Assembly (NCBI RefSeq): GCF_021568285.1
Contig: NZ_JAKGTQ010000005.1
Location: 62,001-126,000 of the forward strand
Reading direction: 5' to 3'
DNA: 64,000 nucleotides
DNA from: Rheinheimera sp. UJ63
GTDB taxonomy: Bacteria; Pseudomonadota; Gammaproteobacteria; Enterobacterales; Alteromonadaceae
Both the position numbers and the translations under genes were made by a program. Each line of letters opens with the position of its first letter. The first letter of the stretch is position 1. Below the pieces are notes generated by a model. The model did no database searches. It was given only the letters and a program-made list of their open reading frames with translations, and was not told where the DNA came from. This document shows positions 11,348 to 29,509 of the stretch, piece by piece.

Positions 11348-12814
11348 TTAAGCTGCGGTCTTTTCCGGAATACGTTCTAGTACCGCTAACAGCAATTGCC
11401 AATACTGGCCGACCGTTTCGATATTCACCATTTCGTCAGGGCCATGCGGATAACGAATGGTTGGGCCAATCGATACCATATCCATCTCAGGATAAGGCTT
11501 TTTAAATAAACCACATTCTAAACCCGCATGGATCACCATTATCACTGGCTCTTTATTATAGATGTCTTCGTAAGTGGCTTTAACGATAGCCATTACCGGT
11601 GAATCAGGATCCGGCTTCCAACCTGGATAAGCACCGTTAAATTTGATCGAGACACCCGCTAATGCCGCCAAACTGGTCAATACCGACTCGACATGCTCAC
11701 GGCCCGAATCGATCAGTGAGCGAATTAAACACACCACCTGTACACTGTCGCCATCGGTGGTGATCACACCTAAGTTTAACGAGGTTTCTACTACGCCCGC
11801 CACGTCATCACTCATCCGCATCACGCCATTCGGACAAGCATGTAATAAGTTTAATAGCGTTTGTTCACACTGTGGCGCCATGACTTGTGAGGGTAAAATG
11901 GTTTCCGCCATAGCAAAGCGGATCGCCGGCTCAATAGCCGCTAACTCTTGCTGTAATAACGCTTCAAAAGCCGCGACTTTTTCAGCTAACAAAGCTTGAT
12001 TCGCCGCAGGCAAGGTCACCGTAACACCGGCTTCACGCGGAATGGCATTTCGTAAAGAGCCGCCGACTATTTCACTGATCCGCAAACCTAATTCAGCGGC
12101 CGACATCACTAAAAAGCGCGCTAATAGTTTGGCGGCATTACCGCGACCTAAGTGAATATTTACGCCCGAGTGGCCGCCCTTTAAACCGGTTAAACTTAAC
12201 CGAAATGCTTGATGTCCTGCAGGGATCGGTTGCCACTGCATCGGCACACTAAATTCGGCGTCTACACCACCGGCGCAGCCCATGTAGATTTCACCCTCTT
12301 GCTCTGAGTCGGTATTAATTAAAATTTCCGCTTCTAGCACACCGGGTTGCAAAGCAAAAGCGCCCGTCATGCCCGCTTCTTCATCTACCGTTAGTAATAC
12401 TTCTAATGGGCCGTGTTTAATGTCATCACTGCCTAAGATGGCTAACGCAGATGCCATACCGATACCGTTGTCTGAGCCCAGCGTGGTGCCACGTGCCGTG
12501 ACCCATTCGCCATCAACGTAAGCATCAATAGGATCTTTTGTAAAATCATGCACTTTATCGGCATTTTTCTGTGGCACCATATCAAGGTGCGCTTGAATAA
12601 CCACGGCTTTACGGTTTTCCATGCCCGCAGTAGCGGGTTTTTTAATAATTAAGTTGCCAACTTGATCTTCATGCACGGCTAAGCCTTTATCTCGCGCCCA
12701 GGCTTGAATATGCCGGCTAAGTGCTTGTTCATGTTTTGAAGGATGAGGAATGGCACAAATTTGCGCAAACCATTGCCATAAGGGTTGTGGATATAAGCTA
12801 GATAAAGCAGTCAC
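11348..12814 (-). CDS. pepD: Aminoacyl-histidine dipeptidase (peptidase D)
   Basis: This 488-residue cytosolic M20-type zinc dipeptidase cleaves Xaa-His dipeptides. Metal-binding and catalytic motifs are visible in order: QAHLDMVPQ, GSDNGIGMA and TVDEEAGMTGAF, then GLKGGHSG in the dimerisation lid and HAGLECGLF near the end. An upstream frame would add 20 residues. GTG 12814 was preferred because AGGAG precedes it by five bases and the resulting length is close to E. coli PepD. It is a single gene with its own terminator. Confidence 0.9.
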   Translation of the reverse strand: MTALSSLYPQPLWQWFAQICAIPHPSKHEQALSRHIQAWARDKGLAVHEDQVGNLIIKKPATAGMENRKAVVIQAHLDMVPQKNADKVHDFTKDPIDAYVDGEWVTARGTTLGSDNGIGMASALAILGSDDIKHGPLEVLLTVDEEAGMTGAFALQPGVLEAEILINTDSEQEGEIYMGCAGGVDAEFSVPMQWQPIPAGHQAFRLSLTGLKGGHSGVNIHLGRGNAAKLLARFLVMSAAELGLRISEIVGGSLRNAIPREAGVTVTLPAANQALLAEKVAAFEALLQQELAAIEPAIRFAMAETILPSQVMAPQCEQTLLNLLHACPNGVMRMSDDVAGVVETSLNLGVITTDGDSVQVVCLIRSLIDSGREHVESVLTSLAALAGVSIKFNGAYPGWKPDPDSPVMAIVKATYEDIYNKEPVIMVIHAGLECGLFKKPYPEMDMVSIGPTIRYPHGPDEMVNIETVGQYWQLLLAVLERIPEKTAA

Positions 12815-12979
12815 AAAGGCTCCTGAAAATCGAAGAAAACGACAGGCTCTGCGCGAACATGCAGGCAAAGCCAAATTGACGCCAGTTTAACATAAGCCAA
12901 CATCAGAGTTGAGTTTCTGCCGCAGCGAACACACCGACACAGGCTAAAGAGAACGCGGAGCTGTAAAGGTAGGCTGCCA

Positions 12980-13021
12980 GTTAACTATGTCGCGTTAACT
13001 ATGCCGCTTTAACTATGGCAC
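12980..13021. repeat. Three imperfect 14-bp tandem repeats
   Basis: GTTAACTATGTCGC, GTTAACTATGCCGC and TTTAACTATGGCAC follow each other without gaps. The last unit contains the stop codon of the sheath gene. This is probably slippage at the 3' end of that gene; no function is evident. Confidence 0.7.
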
Positions 13022-14218
13022 GCTAAGAGGATACACTAACCTAAGAATGACAAACTCTGCCGGCTTAAGCAAAGCCACGCCGCATAAAAGAATCAGCTGC
13101 TGCTGGAGGATATCTTGCACGGTCATCGTCTGCCCCAAGCCACAACGTACAAAAAAAGCCTCTTTCGGCACCGTGCCTTTCATAGCCCCGGCTTGAAATA
13201 GCGAGAGCAGAAACTGTTCCACATTACTGCGTACCGCTTGCCACAGTGGCTCACTGTTTTCCACAGCGTGAGCCCACTCAAGGTTGTGTAAAATACTTTG
13301 CTCAATAAAGATAGCGGTGCGCCGCACTGAAAGATACCGCCATTCTGGCTCGGCCGCCGATGCCAAGGTACGCCCACCCCAAAGCACAGTGTCTGCCTTG
13401 GGTAACGCTCTTAGGCAATTAATCCCTAATGGATTGAGCTGCTGCAGCAAGGTATTGCTTATCGGCAGCCGCAAATTGCAGGCGTCATAAAGTTTTGCCG
13501 TAGTACCTGCTGGCGCTTTCCAAACACCGTTTTTGCTATCCATAGTGCCGTAAATCGCCGCCGCTGCGGCTGAAGGTGGAACAGTGAGCGCTGGCAACAC
13601 CCCGCTTTTCGTTCGGGGCTGATAGATGGGATCAGGCATCGTTAACCATGGATAATACAACACGGCATAGCTTGATGAAGGTAACTGTAAGGCAGCAACA
13701 TCGGCGGCACTGTGCAGTTGCACTGTCGGCGCGATATCTAACAGCAAGATGCAGCGACGAGACTGCTGACAAAACGCCAGCGTAGTTTTAATCGCCTCAT
13801 TCGCCGCACTGGGTTTTCTCCCGCTCCAATATTGCCCAGGCAAAACAATCAGGCTGAAATCAACATAAGCAGTTAATACTTTTTGATAAAGCGGCTGATA
13901 ATCGTCATCAGCCACAGGGCAAATATAGGCTTTGTTACCGTTATTGGCATAAAACGTCATCACCGCTTGATTCATTGCTGCAGCAAGCTTGCTATCGTGT
14001 AGTTTGCCTTGTCCCGGCAGGTCTTTTTGCGGTGTTTGAAATAACTGCTGATATTGCGCCAAGCTGTCAATTAATATCGGTTTAGCAACAATGCCATATT
14101 CGGTGCGACCGATAAAAAGCACTGTGGCGGTGCTTACCGCCACTATGGGTGTTGCTATCCCTGTCTGCTGCATCTGATCCCCCGCTGCGCCGATATTGGC
14201 GCTACTGTGCAAGGGCAC
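13013..14218 (-). CDS. Orphan contractile-tail sheath protein
   Basis: This 401-residue protein matches the phage/eCIS tail sheath family. The N-terminal part has TATVLFIGRTEYG with a conserved Gly, followed by NNGNKAYICPV and LIVLPGQYW. The C-terminal sheath domain has VLWGGRTL, EWRYLSVRRTAIFIEQSI, EPLWQAVRSNVEQFL, GAMKG, EAFFVRCG, TMTVQDI and LKPAEFVILRL. In phages and contractile injection systems this protein polymerises around the inner tube and contracts. Here no tube, baseplate, spike or ATPase gene is nearby; the neighbours are pepD and a quinone reductase-like gene. The reading frame is intact. A domesticated or remnant role is inference. Confidence 0.88.
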   Translation of the reverse strand: MPLHSSANIGAAGDQMQQTGIATPIVAVSTATVLFIGRTEYGIVAKPILIDSLAQYQQLFQTPQKDLPGQGKLHDSKLAAAMNQAVMTFYANNGNKAYICPVADDDYQPLYQKVLTAYVDFSLIVLPGQYWSGRKPSAANEAIKTTLAFCQQSRRCILLLDIAPTVQLHSAADVAALQLPSSSYAVLYYPWLTMPDPIYQPRTKSGVLPALTVPPSAAAAAIYGTMDSKNGVWKAPAGTTAKLYDACNLRLPISNTLLQQLNPLGINCLRALPKADTVLWGGRTLASAAEPEWRYLSVRRTAIFIEQSILHNLEWAHAVENSEPLWQAVRSNVEQFLLSLFQAGAMKGTVPKEAFFVRCGLGQTMTVQDILQQQLILLCGVALLKPAEFVILRLVYPLSVP

Positions 14219-14288
14219 ACCGTTATGGTTGCCCTTTGCTAAAGGTAGTCAGGGATCCGCGTTATCGCCATGCGATTGCTGAAATGGC

Positions 14289-15314
14289 TTAAAACCCTTC
14301 TAATACAATTTTTCCGATAGCTTGGCCAGACTCCAGTTCGGCATGGGCGCGAATTAAGTTTGCAGCATTAATTTGCCCAAAATGCTGCCCAAGCGTAGTG
14401 CGCACAACACCTTGTTCAATCAATGCCGCTACCTGATTGAGCAAATGACGCTGCTCTAGCATATCGGCCGTTTTAAACATTGAGCGAGTAAACATAAACT
14501 CCCAGTGCAGCGAAATGCTCTTTGGCTTTAACTTTTTAATCTCCAGTGTGGCCGGATCATCAATCAAACCTAACTTACCGAAGGGCTGTAACACCTCGAC
14601 ATAATCATCTACATAACGTTCTGTATGGTTCAAACTTGCAACATGGGTGACCGCCGCTATCCCTAAAGCGTTAATTTGAGCCGCTAAAGGTTTGCTGTGA
14701 TCAACCACATAATCCGCGCCTAATGCCTTGACCCAAGCTTTCGAGCTGTCACGCGACGCCGTAGCAATAATGGTTGCACCCGTTAAAGCTTTAGCCAATT
14801 GCAGTAACATAGAGCCCACACCGCCAGCGGCGCCCACCACTAACAGCACTTCCGCCGTTTTTTGTGTTTGTCCTACAACTTGCTGCTGCATGCCCAACTG
14901 CTTAAACAATAATTCATAAGCAGTAATGGTGGTTAAGGGTAAGGCCGCCGCTTCGGCCGCGGTTAAATTGCTGGGTTTATTACCGACAATACGCTCATCA
15001 ACTAATTGATATTCTGCATTACTGCCCTGCCGTGTTAGATCCCCTGCGTAATACACTTGTTGCCCAACACTGAGCAACGCCACTTCATCACCCACCGCGA
15101 CCACTTCACCCACGGCATCCCAACCCAGTACCCGATACTCACCTGCTGCCGGTTGCGCATTTTGCCGGATCTTAAAGTCGACCGGATTAACGGCAATTGC
15201 CTGTACCTTGACTAACACATCGCGACCCGAGGCGATCGGTTGCGGCAATTCGATATCGACTAAGGCGTGCGGTTCAGTAATGGCTTTATTTGCATGGTAT
15301 CCGATGGCTTTCAT
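14289..15314 (-). CDS. Zinc-type alcohol dehydrogenase-like / quinone reductase family protein
   Basis: This 341-residue medium-chain dehydrogenase/reductase has the N-terminal GroES-like part (VLVKVQAIAVNPVDFKIRQ, VLGWDAVGEVVAVG). The nucleotide-binding motif LLVVGAAGGVGSMLLQLAKAL and the C-terminal LESGQAIGKIVLEGF follow. The catalytic-zinc cysteine of true alcohol dehydrogenases is absent, as in quinone oxidoreductases of the TIGR02817 type. It probably reduces quinones or enals with NADPH. It is divergent from a LysR gene that likely controls it. The substrate is unknown. Confidence 0.87.
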   Translation of the reverse strand: MKAIGYHANKAITEPHALVDIELPQPIASGRDVLVKVQAIAVNPVDFKIRQNAQPAAGEYRVLGWDAVGEVVAVGDEVALLSVGQQVYYAGDLTRQGSNAEYQLVDERIVGNKPSNLTAAEAAALPLTTITAYELLFKQLGMQQQVVGQTQKTAEVLLVVGAAGGVGSMLLQLAKALTGATIIATASRDSSKAWVKALGADYVVDHSKPLAAQINALGIAAVTHVASLNHTERYVDDYVEVLQPFGKLGLIDDPATLEIKKLKPKSISLHWEFMFTRSMFKTADMLEQRHLLNQVAALIEQGVVRTTLGQHFGQINAANLIRAHAELESGQAIGKIVLEGF

Positions 15315-16511: not shown

Positions 16512-17597
16512 ATGAAGTTAAGCACCCTGCTCAGCACGGTTTTTATCGCTACACTCAGTTTTACCAGCCAGGCGAATAATACCGCCGCAACTCGCCATAG
16601 CTTGACCCAAGCCGAAGCTAACAAGCTGGTGACATTACCGCTGCATTGTGTCGAAACACCTTATCCATACAAAACGGGCACCGTATTGGGCAGTGCCGCG
16701 GATTTACAAGAACCGTCGGTAGTCCACCCGATTTTTTATGGCTGTTTTGATTGGCACAGTGCGGTGCATGGCTATTGGTCAATGGTCACTTTACTGAAAC
16801 AGTTTCCTGAGCTGGCGCAAGCTGAAGACGTTAAAACCATTTTAAAACGTCATCTCACCGCTGAAAAAGTGGCACAAGAAGTCGCGTTTTTTAGCAAAGA
16901 TATCAATGCGTCGTTTGAACGCACTTATGGCTGGGCCTGGTTGTTAAAGCTATCCGCAGAGCTGCACAGTTGGCCCGATCCGCTTGGCCAACAATTGGCT
17001 AAAAATTTACAACCACTGGCCGATGTGATTGTTAGCCGCTACGAAAACTTCTTACCGCGCTTGGTTTATCCAGTGCGAGTGGGTGAACATACTAACACCG
17101 CCTTTGGTTTAAGCTTTGCTTACGATTATGCGCTTACCCTGCAGCATACCGCGTTACAACAGCTGATCAGTGAGCGTGCCAAAAGCTATTATTTAGACGA
17201 TGCCAACTGCCCCATCACTTGGGAGCCGAGTGGTTATGACTTTTTATCGCCTTGCTTAGAAGAAATTGGCCTGATGCAGCGCATTTTACCTGCCGGTCAG
17301 TTTTTACGCTGGGTAAACCGCTTTATGCCGCAATTAGCCGATAAGAACTATAAACTGGCCGTTGGCCAAGTTAGCGATCGCAGCGATGGTAAACTGGTGC
17401 ATTTAGATGGTTTAAACTTCAGTCGCGCTTGGAATTTATCGGTACTGGCCAAACAATACCCACGCTATGCCCATTTACAAGCCATTGCCGATCAGCATGT
17501 TGCGCACTCCTATCCTAACCTGATTGGCGACAGTTACGAAGGTGGTCATTGGTTAGGTAGTTTTGCCATTCATGCGTTAAATAGTGCTAAGCCATAA
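16512..17597 (+). CDS. DUF2891 family exported protein
   Basis: This 361-residue protein has a signal peptide (about 1-21, ending SQA). The DUF2891 body contains HPIFYGCFDWHSAVHGYW, RTYGWAWLLKLSAEL, HTNTAFGL, CPITWEPSGYDFLSPCLEE and the C-terminal GDSYEGGHWLGSFA. The family is predicted to form an alpha/alpha toroid like glycan-active enzymes, but no activity is established. The DUF502 gene starts ten bases after its stop, so the two are probably co-transcribed. Confidence 0.85.
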   Translation: MKLSTLLSTVFIATLSFTSQANNTAATRHSLTQAEANKLVTLPLHCVETPYPYKTGTVLGSAADLQEPSVVHPIFYGCFDWHSAVHGYWSMVTLLKQFPELAQAEDVKTILKRHLTAEKVAQEVAFFSKDINASFERTYGWAWLLKLSAELHSWPDPLGQQLAKNLQPLADVIVSRYENFLPRLVYPVRVGEHTNTAFGLSFAYDYALTLQHTALQQLISERAKSYYLDDANCPITWEPSGYDFLSPCLEEIGLMQRILPAGQFLRWVNRFMPQLADKNYKLAVGQVSDRSDGKLVHLDGLNFSRAWNLSVLAKQYPRYAHLQAIADQHVAHSYPNLIGDSYEGGHWLGSFAIHALNSAKP

Positions 17598-17607
17598 AAG
17601 GAATGAC

Positions 17608-18216
17608 ATGAACATTTTTGTAAAAAGCCTATTGAAAGGCTTGGTGATCATTTTACCCTTAGTGATCACCATTGAGATCTTACGCTGGCTGCTGCATACC
17701 ATCGAAAGCAGTTTAGCCCCGCTGTTTAAAATGGTTCTGCCGGGTGAATGGTACTTTCCAGGTTTAGCGATTGTCGGTTTTCTCTTAGTTTGTGTTGCAG
17801 TAGGGTTTAGCTCTCGCTGGCGTAGCCTAAATTGGCTGTGGCAATTACCCGGCAAAACGCTGATGAAATTGCCCGGTACCAAACAAATTTACGGCATGCT
17901 GCAAGATATTATTGATGTGATGTCGGGTAAAAACTTTAAAGATGGATCAGTGGTACTGGTTAAGCTGCCCTCATCCGAGATTGAGATGATTGGTATTGTC
18001 ACCAAACAAGGCGGCCAAGCCGATGACCGCATGTCGAGCTTAATGCAAGAAGAGCAATTAGCCGTCTTTTTACCGATGGCTTACAATGTGGGCGGTTATA
18101 CCATTATTGTACCGCGTAGCTGCACCCGAAAAATTGATATGAAACCCGCTGAAGCGCTACAACTGGTGTTAAGCGGGGGTATTGGCAGTGCCAAAGCACC
18201 GCCTAAGCCCGATTAA
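17608..18216 (+). CDS. DUF502 family membrane protein
   Basis: This 202-residue protein has two N-terminal transmembrane segments (about 6-26 with GLVIILPLVITIEIL, and about 50-70 with GLAIVGFLLVCVAVGF). A soluble domain follows with LPGTKQIYGMLQDIIDVMSG, FKDGSVVLVKLPSSEIEMIGIVT and PMAYNVGGYTIIVPR. This is the DUF502 layout. An upstream in-frame ATG would overlap DUF2891. ATG 17608, with AAGGAA before it, was chosen. The function is unknown; a membrane or envelope role is likely. Confidence 0.85.
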   Translation: MNIFVKSLLKGLVIILPLVITIEILRWLLHTIESSLAPLFKMVLPGEWYFPGLAIVGFLLVCVAVGFSSRWRSLNWLWQLPGKTLMKLPGTKQIYGMLQDIIDVMSGKNFKDGSVVLVKLPSSEIEMIGIVTKQGGQADDRMSSLMQEEQLAVFLPMAYNVGGYTIIVPRSCTRKIDMKPAEALQLVLSGGIGSAKAPPKPD

Positions 18217-25675: not shown

Positions 25676-25747
25676 GTTTTACCTGCATTTTTTGCGGCTG
25701 AATATTCGGTGGCTTAGCCTACTTGGCGAGGCAATATTTCACCTGCG

Positions 25748-26075
25748 GTGAGATACTTTCTTTTGCGTCTGCAAGCTTCGGGGACAGATACCAAAACCTA
25801 AAACCCTTAACGTTTTCGCCGTTGGCGAGATACTTTCTTTTGCGTCGCCAAAAGAAAGTATCCAAAGAAAATGCGACCCCACTTCCGCTCGAAAGCCCAA
25901 CTGCTCATGCGTTGCCCAAGGCGAAAACGTAACTCGCGCTATGCTTCGTCGCCGCACTCAAACACCCGTTTTCTTAAAACCTTGGCCAACGATGATCAGT
26001 CGGCTCGCTCTAAGGGGACTAAAATCTAAAGCGGTATGCGCTAAGCTGCAAATGCCGTCTTTTATCCAAAATCGT
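25748..26075. repeat. Interspersed hairpin repeat, copy A
   Basis: This unit of about 300 bases recurs at 26.7 and 28.5 kb in the same orientation and, diverged and inverted, at 27.1 and 28.9 kb. Its core is a hairpin: GATACTTTCTTTTG (25829-25842), six-base loop, CAAAAGAAAGTATC (25849-25862). A partial extra copy of the left arm lies at 25750-25766. Short reading frames inside it shift between copies, so it looks non-coding. It fills the 636-base gap between tetR and the next small gene. No transposase is present; a non-autonomous element is inferred. Confidence 0.8.
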
Positions 26076-26312
26076 TTTGGTCGTCATTTATGCAACTCAT
26101 GTTTAGAGTTCAGAGAAAAAGCATTTCAAAATTAACCACTGTAAATTAATTGTTTCATCAAAAAGAAAATTCCATTAGCATCAGCTATACCAAAAACTAA
26201 GTGAATCGTCACGTTCAACTGGCGTTTATCCGTCACTGTATAACGTGTCGGATAAAACACTTAAGCGCTATGTAAAAGTTGAGTTTTTCTAATCATCCAG
26301 GAGAGAATTTTA

Positions 26313-26576
26313 ATGGACTTTCATTCAAGCAATATAGGTTCAGAGCACTTAATGACTTTTAGTCTGACTTGGAGCTTATTGCCAATTATAGCGACCATTT
26401 TAGTGCATATTGCGTTTAGTGCGGCAGTATTCAATGACGCCAAAAGGCTACAAAGTAAGCATGATTCTTTGGCCTTTGTAAACTCGTGGATTTGGTCTTT
26501 AGCCGTTTTAGTTGGTGGTGTATTTGTTGCTTTAGCCTATTGGATTATTCACCATTCAACAATTGCTAAGCATTAA
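26313..26576 (+). CDS. Small two-helix membrane protein
   Basis: This 87-residue frame has AGGAGAGAA nine bases before the ATG. Two hydrophobic segments are visible: about 20-42 (WSLLPIIATILVHIAFSAAVF) and about 58-80 (WIWSLAVLVGGVFVALAYWII). A short charged link (NDAKRLQSKHDS) joins them. The family was not recognised with confidence. The good ribosome-binding site and membrane pattern support a real gene. It stands between two repeat copies. Confidence 0.6.
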   Translation: MDFHSSNIGSEHLMTFSLTWSLLPIIATILVHIAFSAAVFNDAKRLQSKHDSLAFVNSWIWSLAVLVGGVFVALAYWIIHHSTIAKH

Positions 26577-26580
26577 AGAT

Positions 26581-26640
26581 AACATGTTTGGAGTAAGAGA
26601 CTTGTAACATGTTTGGGGTCAAAGACTGAGCATTTAAGGC
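26581..26640 (+). repeat. Direct repeat with GGGGTCAAAGACTRAGCATT-like motif
   Basis: AACATGTTTGG plus a GAGTAAGAGAC-like tail occurs twice (from 26581 and from 26606). The second copy continues as GGGGTCAAAGACTGAGCATT. Related versions occur at 27244-27270, 27745-27765 and 28830-28854, so the motif recurs at the edges of the interspersed repeats and before the toxin gene. It may mark the element ends. Confidence 0.5.
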
Positions 26641-26995
26641 TGATGTACTTTTTAATCCCATTACGTTGCAAGCCGAGCAAGTTTGCGTGACCAGGTGTTA
26701 AGACGAGGGGTGTTTGAGTAGCTTCGGGTTCTGATACCAAGACCCTTAACGATTTCGCCGTTGGCGAGATACTTTCTTTTGCGTCGCCAAAAGAAAGTAT
26801 CCAAAGAAAATGCGACCCCACTTCCGCTCGAAAGCCCAACTGCTCATGCGTTGTCCAAGGCGAAAACGTAACTCGCGCTATGCTTCGTCGCCGCACTCAA
26901 ACACCCGTTTTCTTAAAACCTTGGCCAACGATGATCAGTCGGCTCACTCTAAGGGGAATTAAAACCAGAGCGGTATTCGCTAAGCTGAATAGCTT
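26638..26995. repeat. Interspersed hairpin repeat, copy B (composite)
   Basis: The first 80 bases match the left end of the inverted-type copies (27091, 28854). At about 26717 the sequence switches to the opposite-orientation type and continues as in copies A and C. The hairpin is GATACTTTCTTTTG at 26768-26781 and its complement at 26788-26801. This head-to-head join suggests recombination or insertion of one copy into another. Confidence 0.75.
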
Positions 26996-27090
26996 GTTTG
27001 TGCAATATTGCAGACATTTCACAACGCAATCAGCAAAGACCGCTTTCACTTCTTAGCTGTAAGAATCTTAAAACCGAAATACTCTTTAGT

Positions 27091-27240
27091 CTGATGTGCT
27101 TTTCAATCCCATTACGTTGCAAGCCGAGCAAGTTTGCGTGACCAGGTGTTAAGACGAGGAGTGTTTGAGTGAGGGGCGGTAGCGCCGAGCGAGTTACCTC
27201 GTGGCCTTGGGCGGGCAAAATTGAACGGGCTTTCGCAGTA
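27091..27240. repeat. Interspersed hairpin repeat, copy E (inverted, truncated)
   Basis: This stretch is homologous, in inverted orientation, to the outer part of copies A-C and close to copy D (28854). It stops before the hairpin core and runs into the GGGGTCAGAAACTAAGCAT motif. It lies in the otherwise gene-free stretch 26577-27360. Confidence 0.7.
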
Positions 27241-27360
27241 ATAGCATGCTTGGGGTCAGAAACTAAGCATTTTTGATTGAAGTTTCGGGTGCCTGTGCTA
27301 CCGCCAAGATTAATCAAGTCTACTGAATTACTCACTTGGTACTTAGTACATCAGTTATTT

Positions 27361-27606
27361 TCAATCACTTTTTTGGTTATGCTCATGAACTGCATACCAA
27401 AAGGAAACTATGATACCTGCAGGAATAACTGTTAATGAGACCCAAGTAAACCGATATAAAGAAAATTCTTCAAAGCTTCCACTCATAAATACTTTAAAAA
27501 AGCCTAAAAAGTACATGCTACCAATTATTAAAAATGAATAAATTTTAGTGTCTTTAATTATTATCTTGTTTTGACAGTAGCCTTTGAGTTTACTCAAAAA
27601 TTTCAT
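27361..27606 (-). CDS. Hypothetical small membrane protein
   Basis: This 81-residue frame has a basic N-terminus (MKFLSKLKGYCQNK) and two hydrophobic segments: about 23-42 (YSFLIIGSMYFLGFFKVFM) and about 50-72 (LYRFTWVSLTVIPAGIIVSFWYAV). No family was recognised. The DNA is clearly more AT-rich than neighbouring chromosome, as expected for acquired material. The ribosome-binding site is weak. It may be real, but the evidence is only the frame and its membrane pattern. Confidence 0.4.
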   Translation of the reverse strand: MKFLSKLKGYCQNKIIIKDTKIYSFLIIGSMYFLGFFKVFMSGSFEEFSLYRFTWVSLTVIPAGIIVSFWYAVHEHNQKSD

Positions 27607-27775
27607 TTAAACTTTACTATTTTATCATCTGATACATGATTATTGATTGTATTTGGCACTGCGTCAATTGCTGAAATTTCAATTTTAAGGCTTTTAAGTT
27701 CGCTTTTAGGTGTTAGCAGGAAGCTTCGTTAAACATCATTTTTAGGGGAGAGACTAAGCATTTACTAACATCGTT

Positions 27776-28063
27776 TCACACATCATGCTCGGTGAGCAAC
27801 TGACGACAATGTCTTACCGTTAGCACGCGTATCTCATGACTCAAGCTATAAATGATGCGGTAATGACCAAAGATAATTTCTCGGTAGTGTGTATGAGGCA
27901 TTTCTGGAACCATTCGCCCCATTTCTGGCACTGATTCAAGGAGATCCGTTTTGTCAAAAACGTCATTTACCCATTTTTCTGCGGCGGAGGGATTATCCAA
28001 AGCAATAAACTCTGCAGCATCACCCAGCTTTTGTAATGCTAAAGGTGACCAGACTACTCTCAT
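27776..28063 (-). CDS. ParE/RelE-family toxin
   Basis: This 95-residue protein shows the RelE/ParE fold signature: VVWSPLALQKLGDAAEFIALDNPSAAEKWVNDVF, then LLESVPEMGRMVPE and YREIIFGHYRIIYSLSHEIRVLTVRHCRQL. The YRIIY and VRHCRQ strands are typical of ParE-like toxins of Phd-linked pairs. Whether it attacks gyrase or ribosome-bound mRNA cannot be told. Its ATG overlaps the antitoxin stop by four bases, so translation is coupled. The pair lies amid repeats in a plastic region. Confidence 0.88.
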   Translation of the reverse strand: MRVVWSPLALQKLGDAAEFIALDNPSAAEKWVNDVFDKTDLLESVPEMGRMVPEMPHTHYREIIFGHYRIIYSLSHEIRVLTVRHCRQLLTEHDV

Positions 28064-28341
28064 CTATTAATGCGTTTTAAGATTTGGGAACGAGCATCTT
28101 TATTTAATACACCTAAACCTGCAGCTAATTGCACTTCAGCAGTATGTATTTCTTCAAGTAACTCGATCTTCTCTTGCATTGCTTCATATTCTGCGACATC
28201 AAGAACAACGGCCACACCTTTACCATGCTGCGTAATAACCAACGGCCGACGTGTCTCATTGACTTGCTTAATAAATGATGTAACACCAGCACGAAATTCA
28301 GATAAAGGCTGAATATCTTTATCAAGATGAATACGGTTCAT
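28060..28341 (-). CDS. Phd/YefM-family antitoxin
   Basis: This 93-residue antitoxin has the N-terminal Phd/YefM DNA-binding part (IQPLSEFRAGVTSFIKQVNETRRPLVITQHGKGVAVVLDVAEYEAM). An acidic helical C-terminal tail is the likely toxin-binding part. ATG 28341 has GGAG six bases upstream; the longer TTG start at 28353 is less likely. It is the first gene of the pair, and antitoxin or the complex should repress the promoter upstream. Confidence 0.88.
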   Translation of the reverse strand: MNRIHLDKDIQPLSEFRAGVTSFIKQVNETRRPLVITQHGKGVAVVLDVAEYEAMQEKIELLEEIHTAEVQLAAGLGVLNKDARSQILKRINR

Positions 28342-28356
28342 ATTGAACTCCAATTA

Positions 28357-28372
28357 GTACAACTTAACGTAC
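28357..28372. promoter_or_regulatory. Candidate operator of the toxin-antitoxin pair
   Basis: Two GTAC half-sites (28357-28360 and 28369-28372) are separated by eight bases, giving TTGTAC twice in direct order on the minus strand. They lie 15-31 bases before the antitoxin start, where Phd-type autorepression sites occur. Binding is inferred. Confidence 0.35.
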
Positions 28373-28520
28373 AAATATTAGTCCTGTTGACCTTTGTGAG
28401 CAAGGAATTGATAAAGTCTTTATTTTTTAAAAAACTTAGACAATTGTCAGATCTTAAGTTATTGCGGATATGCGCGTAGACATTTTGGTGCGGCAGGAAT
28501 TTTGGTCCTGCGCTTTAAGG

Positions 28521-28822
28521 AGTAGCTTCGGGGGCATATACCAAGACCCTTAACGATTTCGCCGTTGGCGAGATACTTTCTTTTGCGTCGCCAAAAGAAA
28601 GTATCCAAAGAAAATTCGACCCCACTTCCGCTCGAAAGCCCGGCTGCTCATGCGTTGTCCAAGGCGAAAACGTAACTCGCGCGGCGCTACCGTCGCCGCA
28701 CTCAAACACCCGTTTTCTTAAAACCTTGGCCAACGATGACCAGTCGGCTCGCTCTAAGGGGACTAAAAGCCAGAGCCGTATTCGCTAAGCTGAATAATCC
28801 GTTTTTTACCCCAAATCGTTTT
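28521..28822. repeat. Interspersed hairpin repeat, copy C
   Basis: It has the same orientation as copy A, with hairpin arms at 28572-28585 and 28592-28605. It is close to copies A and B over its whole length, with scattered changes. One is a longer substitution around 28680 where the inner GC-rich part differs. Confidence 0.8.
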
Positions 28823-28853
28823 CATTTTTGAGGCCAAAGACTAAGTATTTAAG

Positions 28854-29058
28854 GCTGATGCGCTTTTAAATCCCATTACGTTGCAAGCCGAGCAAGTTTG
28901 TCCGACCAAGGTTTTAAGACGAGGGGTGTCTGAGTGAGGGGCGGTAGCGCCGAGCGAGTTACCTCGTCGCCTTGGGCGGGCAAAATTGAACGGGCTTTCG
29001 CCGCAACGTGGGTCGCATTTTCTTTGGTGACTTTCTTTTGGCGAGACAAAAGAAAGTT
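28854..29058. repeat. Interspersed hairpin repeat, copy D (inverted)
   Basis: This copy is inverted relative to A-C and diverged from them. The hairpin is GTGACTTTCTTTTG (29027-29040), loop GCGAGA, and CAAAAGAAAGTTAC (29047-29060). The arms keep 13 of 14 pairs despite changes on both sides, which points to selection for, or an origin by, the paired structure. It runs into the 99-bp tandem array. Confidence 0.8.
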
Positions 29059-29509
29059 ACTCGCCAACGGCGAAAAAGTTTTTAACCATATGATTATAAA
29101 GCGTTTAAAGTCGCAGGCTGTGCATTATCATTTTCGCAAGGCAAAAGAAAGCAAATCACTCGCCAACGGCGAAAAAGCTTTTAACCACATGATTAGCAAG
29201 CGTTTAAAGTCGCAGACTATGCATTATTATTTTCGCAAGGCAAAAGAAAGCAAATCACTCGCCAACGGCGAAAAAGTTTTTAACCACATGATTAACAAGC
29301 GTTTAAAGTCGCAGACTATGCATTATTATTTTCGCAAGGCAAAAGAAAGCAAATCACTCGCCAACGGCGAAAAGGTTATCAACTACACAAAGTTACAACC
29401 TGGCGAAGCTGCATGGTTTAACACGCGACTGCACCGTCGTCGCATTAAAGCAAACCACATAAAAAATTCTACTTTGACCACTGTTTTAATCTTGAACAAG
29501 GCTTTATGA
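28934..29509 (+). CDS. Open frame spanning repeat copy D and the tandem array (doubtful gene)
   Basis: This 191-codon frame begins inside repeat copy D and crosses the 99-bp array, which keeps it open because 99 is a multiple of three. It yields three copies of a 33-residue basic unit (SLANGEKVFNHMI, KRLKSQTMHYYF, RKAKESK). The tail LQPGEAAWFNTRLHRRRIKAN is not repeated. No ribosome-binding site or family was seen. It could be an accidental frame or a new repeat protein; I lean towards non-coding. Confidence 0.25.
   Translation: MRGGSAERVTSSPWAGKIERAFAATWVAFSLVTFFWRDKRKLLANGEKVFNHMIIKRLKSQAVHYHFRKAKESKSLANGEKAFNHMISKRLKSQTMHYYFRKAKESKSLANGEKVFNHMINKRLKSQTMHYYFRKAKESKSLANGEKVINYTKLQPGEAAWFNTRLHRRRIKANHIKNSTLTTVLILNKAL
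29059..29374 (+). repeat. 99-bp tandem repeat, three units plus a partial fourth
   Basis: Units start at 29059, 29158 and 29257; a fourth starts at 29356 and is cut after about 19 bases. The period is exactly 99. Each unit opens with CTCGCCAACGGCGAAAAAG, which is the outer flank of the interspersed repeat. The unit contains KRLKSQ when read in the open frame. Units 2 and 3 are nearly identical and unit 1 is more diverged. The spacing and lack of unique spacers exclude CRISPR. Confidence 0.88.

Follow-up and report, generated by a model that had tools for sequence, protein, structure and literature searches.

The window, a stretch of 64,000 nucleotides, contains on its minus strand a solitary gene (positions 13013–14218) whose product is a sheath protein of the extracellular contractile-injection system (eCIS) type. 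Our best explanation is that this gene is a domesticated eCIS-type sheath, selected for a job performed without a contractile machine, a reading to which we assign a probability of roughly 0.55. Counted in its favour are the presence of the gene in 8 of the 31 genomes of the genus Arsukibacterium, the dN/dS values, the Mantel correlation, a conserved upstream element, 30 of 80 related loci showing no tube in the flank examined, at least eight changes on the sheath tree, the clustering of losses in the terminal arms, the constraint on both the lone sheath and the lone tube of Holophagae, and the finding of neither tube nor wedge in the window genome (G000) and in G004. Counted against it are five nearest relatives without the gene, one broken sister copy and the loss of the N-terminal arm motif in the window copy.

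The reading frame comprises 401 open codons, and its assignment is based on profile, PHROG and Protein Data Bank (PDB) matches, an alignment and a predicted fold. Two Pfam domains, Phage_sheath_1 (PF04984, 1.1e-8) and Phage_sheath_1C (PF17482, 5.6e-8), match above the curated cut-off, the second one spanning residues 290–394 and, together with the tail that follows, occupying positions 13013–13351 of the minus strand. The protein also hits tail-sheath families in PHROG (2.7e-44 and 5.8e-32); no NCBIfam model matches it. Results of the PDB search comprise 17 distinct sequences at E values up to 1, each bearing the name of a sheath protein or an eCIS sheath paralogue; CIS and eCIS sheaths rank best, with sheath chains down to 4e-44. 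The AlphaFold2 model, calculated from a 25-row alignment, has a pLDDT of 86.8 and a pTM of 0.88, with residues 1–19 below 50, and Foldseek places Streptomyces, Halogeometricum, PVC and AFP sheaths among its first ranks (query-normalized TM of about 0.7). By its two Pfam domains above cut-off and its sheath fold the protein belongs to the sheath family, and the Pfam and PDB matches together with the structure model rule out a chance reading frame. Both domains and the whole fold are common to the eCIS sheaths of known systems (Afp2/Pvc2, Streptomyces CIS, Halogeometricum borinquense CIS); the genes of those sheaths, however, sit together with genes for tube, baseplate and further components, none of which was found for the window sheath. 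The earlier note on this DNA had called a sheath gene here, and the open 401-codon frame on the minus strand and the motifs that it quoted are indeed present. Its description of the gene as intact holds for the open frame, whereas 'full-length' is not quite right, because the N-terminal arm of the orthologues (MPDYTRPGVYVNEI or similar) is degenerate in the window copy, whose start codon is GTG at 14218 or an in-frame TTG at 14212; in the alignment of upstream regions and starts, this TTG is aligned to the ATG of most orthologues.

In known structures, the terminal arms of sheaths interlock neighbouring subunits. The window protein lacks an N-terminal arm and a C-terminal tail of the kind found in machine sheaths. 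Its degenerate N-terminal arm (about residues 1–21; positions 14155–14218, minus strand) lacks the PGVY motif of the orthologues, in which the N-arm motif is largely present, is modelled with low confidence at residues 1–19, and shows a mean identity to the other orthologues of 14%, versus 54% in the core. At the opposite end, solitary Arsukibacterium sheaths differ from eCIS-type tails: among those listed, they mostly terminate in Y-x-L-S/T-P-P, whereas tube-linked relatives mostly terminate in FRIGQKTAD or FRIGQWTAD; some solitary sheaths retain canonical ends. Constraint was compared between 53 tube-linked and 26 short solitary sheaths; its losses in the solitary group are concentrated at the two ends, N arm and C tail, where 31 of 398 residues hold 12 of the 31 positions concerned (Fisher p 3e-7), in a contrast whose cut-off and division into arms and core were set post hoc, whose rows are non-independent and whose groups differ in diversity. 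The C-terminal core is about equally conserved in the two groups. Upstream of the gene lies a conserved element (positions 14240–14271, minus strand), in which ATGGCGAT and CTGACTACCTTTA are separated by 11 nt. An arrangement close to ATGGCAAT, about 11 nt and CTGACTAYCTTTA is common, with some changes, to the eight genes and one remnant that were aligned, and all 13 invariant columns of this alignment fall in or beside the element, which is probably a promoter.

Downstream of the sheath gene is a pepD-like M20 peptidase gene (11348–12874, minus strand), and directly upstream on the same strand is a zinc-type dehydrogenase gene (14289–15314), assigned by Pfam and considered to be outside the system. 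The DUF2891 and DUF502 genes (16512–18216, plus strand), like pepD, were identified by Pfam and synteny and serve as syntenic landmarks. A six-frame profile search of the 64-kb window gave zero matches to tube, LysM and VgrG. Besides the sheath, seven neighbouring ORFs were scanned with Pfam and 41 others with Pfam and PHROGs; for these 41, no tail family appears among the 25 listed of 73 matched Pfam families, nor among the 25 listed of 43 matched PHROG families. Rfam yielded nothing in the window at gathering thresholds. The profile search and the 41-ORF scans bear out the earlier statement that the gene is solitary, with no tail genes nearby.

The genome-wide search proposed in the earlier note found exactly one sheath gene in G000, no PF06841 (T4_gp19) tube at E values up to 0.01 and no PF04965 gp25-type baseplate wedge; identical searches on 60 relatives detected the tube in 17 and the wedge in 33. 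Like G000, G004 has neither tube nor wedge by these searches. With tube and gp25 wedge both undetected in the assembly, the earlier suggestion of a partner system encoded at another place in the genome finds no support here. It is likewise very improbable that the sheath is a spare part for a contractile machine whose genes lie in another region of its genome: although some carriers have a type VI secretion system (T6SS; G001) or an eCIS (G006, a carrier at the pepD locus), G000 and G004 yielded neither tube nor wedge, and the T6SS of G001, which includes the wedge of that genome together with TssF and a ClpV-like ATPase, comes with VipA and VipB sheath genes of its own. Single contractile-system genes away from the main cluster are familiar as the orphan Hcp and VgrG genes of T6SSs, tube and spike parts that work with a T6SS. 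The window gene resembles these in being a lone contractile-system gene, but it encodes a sheath, and no machine was found in its genome.

Intact homologues of the window sheath, with 53–56% identity to it, are present in seven other species (G001, G004, G006, G008, G010, G026 and G028) at the same position, beside pepD and near DUF502, and this synteny rules out a single-genome oddity. Named carriers are A. perlucidum, A. ikkense, A. tuosuense and A. indicum; a search of the main text of an exoproteome paper on A. ikkense turned up no mention of a sheath, phage or tail (PMC4767292). The Arsukibacterium sample comprises 31 genomes, and the pepD locus was obtained in 30 of them, window included. 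An intact sheath lies upstream of pepD at 8 of the 30 loci (8 of 31 genomes, the window counted), G022 retains a remnant with stops from which most of the middle is gone, and the other 21 loci show no sheath similarity within the 1.5 kb examined upstream of pepD. All five genomes closest to the window by pepD (G003, G005, G011, G017 and G023; 83–86%) belong to these 21, and the ORF in front of their pepD is an unrelated, membrane-protein-like one, which we take to be LysE-like. The signs that the earlier note had named as refuting its view, frameshift or absence in sister strains, thus both occur, as the broken remnant of G022 and the 21 loci without the gene.

Orthologues at the pepD locus are under purifying selection. 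In six pairs with dS under 1.25, the dN/dS ratio of the sheath is 0.10–0.16 (NG86) or 0.14–0.21 (YN00), and that of pepD in the same pairs is 0.04–0.06 (NG86) or 0.05–0.07 (YN00). The dN/dS estimate advised in the earlier note is available for these six pairs, whereas the ratio of the window copy itself is unreadable because dS is saturated in all its pairs. Tube-linked eCIS sheaths of the genus (rows of G026 left out) have ratios of 0.00–0.06 among 11 genomes and of 0.08–0.12 against the more distant G030, so that the solitary sheaths, at 0.10–0.16 versus 0.00–0.12, are freer than machine sheaths yet constrained. Sheath distances track pepD distances (Mantel r 0.87, p 0.0002; r 0.77, p 0.001 when the window is left out), which would fit vertical descent among the carriers without proving it. 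The ratio of sheath to pepD distance is 2.4 for the window copy versus 3.3 for the others, indicating that the window copy is not the faster one; transfer or saturation would also fit this lower ratio.

Under slow decay, the gene would be vanishing, at least in the window species, whether it is left over from an eCIS cluster since lost or was transferred as a single gene. We consider this unlikely, given that the gene is intact in seven other species with dN/dS of 0.10–0.16 in the usable pairs, that relative to pepD the window copy has not outpaced the others (2.4 versus 3.3), and that the upstream element is retained. On the side of decay stand the patchy presence at 8 of 30 pepD loci, a broken copy in G022 and a further one at a different locus in G029, the degenerate N arm and non-ATG start of the window copy, a dN/dS exceeding that of eCIS sheaths, and the case of G026, where a sheath is left alone at an eCIS site. 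This second sheath of G026 (516 aa, L032:8645–10195) is 85% identical to that of G021, and the genes upstream of it match the site of a fuller eCIS-like cluster in G021 (L033); tube, LysM and VgrG matches are missing at its site, and no PF06841 tube was found in the genome. In comparison with four eCIS sheaths its dN/dS is 0.06–0.08, and in comparison with G030 it is 0.14. The broken remnant of G029 (L186:9656–9838) is located, judging from ORF order and size, seemingly at the place where G024 has a solitary sheath of 527 aa (L029:8752–10335) beside an RNase J-like gene. The option of a remnant, raised in the earlier note, is thus not supported for the orthologue group, open in seven other species at dN/dS of 0.10–0.16, and retains signs in its favour in the degenerate N arm of the window copy.

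Solitary sheaths also occur outside the pepD locus and outside the genus. The contig scan for related loci retained the best 80 of 400 confirmed relatives, a set biased to near relatives for that reason, and among these six-frame profiles find no tube in the flank examined at 30 loci, 7 in Arsukibacterium and 23 outside the genus, from several phyla. The short frames among the best 80 loci have no tube in the flank examined, but short length was rejected as a mark of solitary sheaths, being a query bias: short sheaths also occur in full clusters, as on Deinococcus and Rhodococcus plasmids. On a Streptomyces plasmid, a short sheath is annotated, and an incomplete gene table lists no tail gene in its vicinity; among 123 plasmid records with a sheath match, the three inspected are two eCIS and one solitary. 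At a different locus of Arsukibacterium (G019, L028:9405–10601), a solitary sheath of 35% identity has CreA and a LytTR regulator as neighbours. Across the phyla, no gene family was seen to recur next to the sheath, which dismisses shared neighbours as partners; among the immediate neighbours scanned are CreA, a LytTR regulator, PdxH, CorA and glycogen enzymes. A phage or plasmid origin was rejected as well, phage matches being distant (the best of them, to a phage sheath, has 32% identity across 57% of the protein).

The sheath tree contains 98 tube-linked rows, 9 longer solitary rows and 26 solitary rows not exceeding 460 aa in frame length, 20 of which have at least 5 kb on both sides and six of which end at contig ends. 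On this quick tree with long branches, the short solitary label changes 12 times, with at least 8 changes forced by starred branches, a pattern that, with the care due to such a tree, lends no support to a single ancient solitary family and would need several independent origins of solitary sheaths. G140 has both kinds in one genome, a lone sheath and, on another contig, an eCIS-like sheath with tubes. The lone sheath of G140 is at L216:8868–10001, close to genes that are presumably infC and thrS.

Tube genes away from sheaths bear on another explanation, in which a lone sheath and a lone tube cooperate without baseplate as a split two-gene system, the tube of the window genome being too divergent or lost. 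Twenty genomes with a solitary sheath (from 21 loci; completeness unstated) have one PF17482 sheath each, and a PF06841 tube is found elsewhere in 8 of them, in line with a split system, and in none of the other 12, which argues against it; 3 have a PF04965 wedge. Also against it, the tube is absent in 6 of the 8 carriers at the pepD locus. Among 249 Pseudomonadota genomes, 20 have an eCIS-type sheath (E≤1e-25) and 17 a tube, the latter being 16 genomes with a sheath and G276, which has an adjacent tube pair and no sheath found. In favour of the split system, no lone tube occurs in sheathless genomes of this set, and in G108 and G113 sheath and tube are on separate contigs, with no wedge. G000, G088, G164 and G208 have a sheath without PF06841 tube; G088 and G164 are probably phage or tailocin, because wedge and spike-like matches lie near the sheath. 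Among the 60 relatives, sheath and tube occupy separate contigs in G001 and G034, and the tube was found in 0 of the 34 genomes without a sheath match, both points favouring the split system.

Lone tubes were located in G001 (L176), G067 (L177), G066 (L178) and G064 (L179), with no sheath, LysM or VgrG in the stretch examined; in G070 (L181), a LysM-like match adjoins the tube. The tube gene of G001, Arsukibacterium indicum (L176:9758–10231), is a T4_gp19 gene of 157 aa in metabolic surroundings, its sheath being on another contig. Since several tubes are on short contigs (9.5–18 kb in several MAGs), a distance between sheath and tube is demonstrated for few genomes: in G067 the two are 250 kb apart on one contig, and in G001 and G064 the tubes are on long contigs. 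Two Holophagae genomes have a lone sheath (82% identity, dN/dS 0.13) and a lone tube (83%, 0.17), both constrained as a split system would have it, and the two enzymes beside the sheath have dN/dS of 0.09 and 0.16. In G316 (L218:9075–10666) a short sheath and a tube are side by side, again in keeping with cooperation, and the 19 kb examined there contain neither a LysM nor a VgrG match. Taking into account the small counts and the few separations proven, and that the T4 tube protein, in the portion of the source available, does not polymerize without baseplate (PMC3185693), such a split system appears quite unlikely for the window gene.

Domestication for a job without a machine could work as follows. 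The sheath gene would be expressed and its product folded; with the core kept and the arms freer, the sheath may still accept the arms of its neighbours and donate its own poorly, and would therefore cap or poison a contractile sheath under assembly within its cell, be it that of a prophage, an incoming phage or an imported eCIS. Small oligomers only would be the alternative outcome of poor arm donation. Capping or interference is our first guess for the mechanism, possible but doubtful, with a minority share of the whole; it would fit the repeated origins, the patchy spread and the occasional lone tubes. Counted against it are the distance of the best phage sheath (32% over 57%) and the PADLOC search for known anti-phage defence, in which no family is matched by the four proteins searched.

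The main rival for the mechanism is a stand-alone polymer, in which the protein would self-assemble into tubes or rings resembling polysheath and serve as structure or scaffold; we regard this as improbable. The conserved sheath core agrees with it, but constraint is lowered at the terminal arms, the parts that interlock subunits, and the N-arm motif is lost in the window copy. The available portions of two reports describe phage sheath protein that can polymerize without tube (PMC3185693) and one phage sheath that still does so when up to 25 residues are missing at its N terminus or 100 at its C terminus (PMC6357053), and it is this polymerization of a trimmed sheath on its own that keeps the polymer in play. 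Phage polysheaths (T4 gp18, FV3 gp053) resemble the window case in that a sheath protein acts without other tail proteins (PMC3185693, PMC6357053, as far as accessible), whereas they arise by overexpression or as a side product of phage genes, unlike the conserved solitary chromosomal gene described here. Of the options in the earlier note, reuse for a new purpose is the best supported, although its stand-alone polymer version is not favoured by the relaxed terminal arms.

To our knowledge, sheaths are thought to act only with tube and baseplate. Tentatively, and at somewhat less than even odds, stand-alone eCIS-type sheath genes may form a recurrent class of domesticated contractile-tail genes in bacteria and possibly archaea, derived repeatedly from full machines and selected for a function other than injection (capping or poisoning, or a baseplate-less polymer), with a separate tube in some genomes and mostly without wedge. 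Short sheaths have been predicted in bacterial and archaeal genomes, Bathyarchaeota included, and modelled, according to the accessible part of PMC9230969, which does not take up their gene context. A large survey, in the part of the source available, left out candidates without baseplate, tube or sheath-initiator genes, so that lone sheaths would be invisible to it (PMC12210884). Among the matches listed from the open literature, no description of conserved solitary sheath genes was found. Should lone sheaths be maintained by selection across many lineages, their fold would have a second use, for which no assay was found, in defence against contractile particles or as an intracellular polymer; a direct test is feasible because named Arsukibacterium species carry the gene.

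Elsewhere in the window, positions 25700–29500 form a repeat-rich stretch of lower GC with five families of direct repeats (up to 249 nt, 96% alike), including a 99-nt tandem step at 29049–29387. These repeats surround a ParE toxin and Phd-YefM antitoxin pair at 27776–28353.
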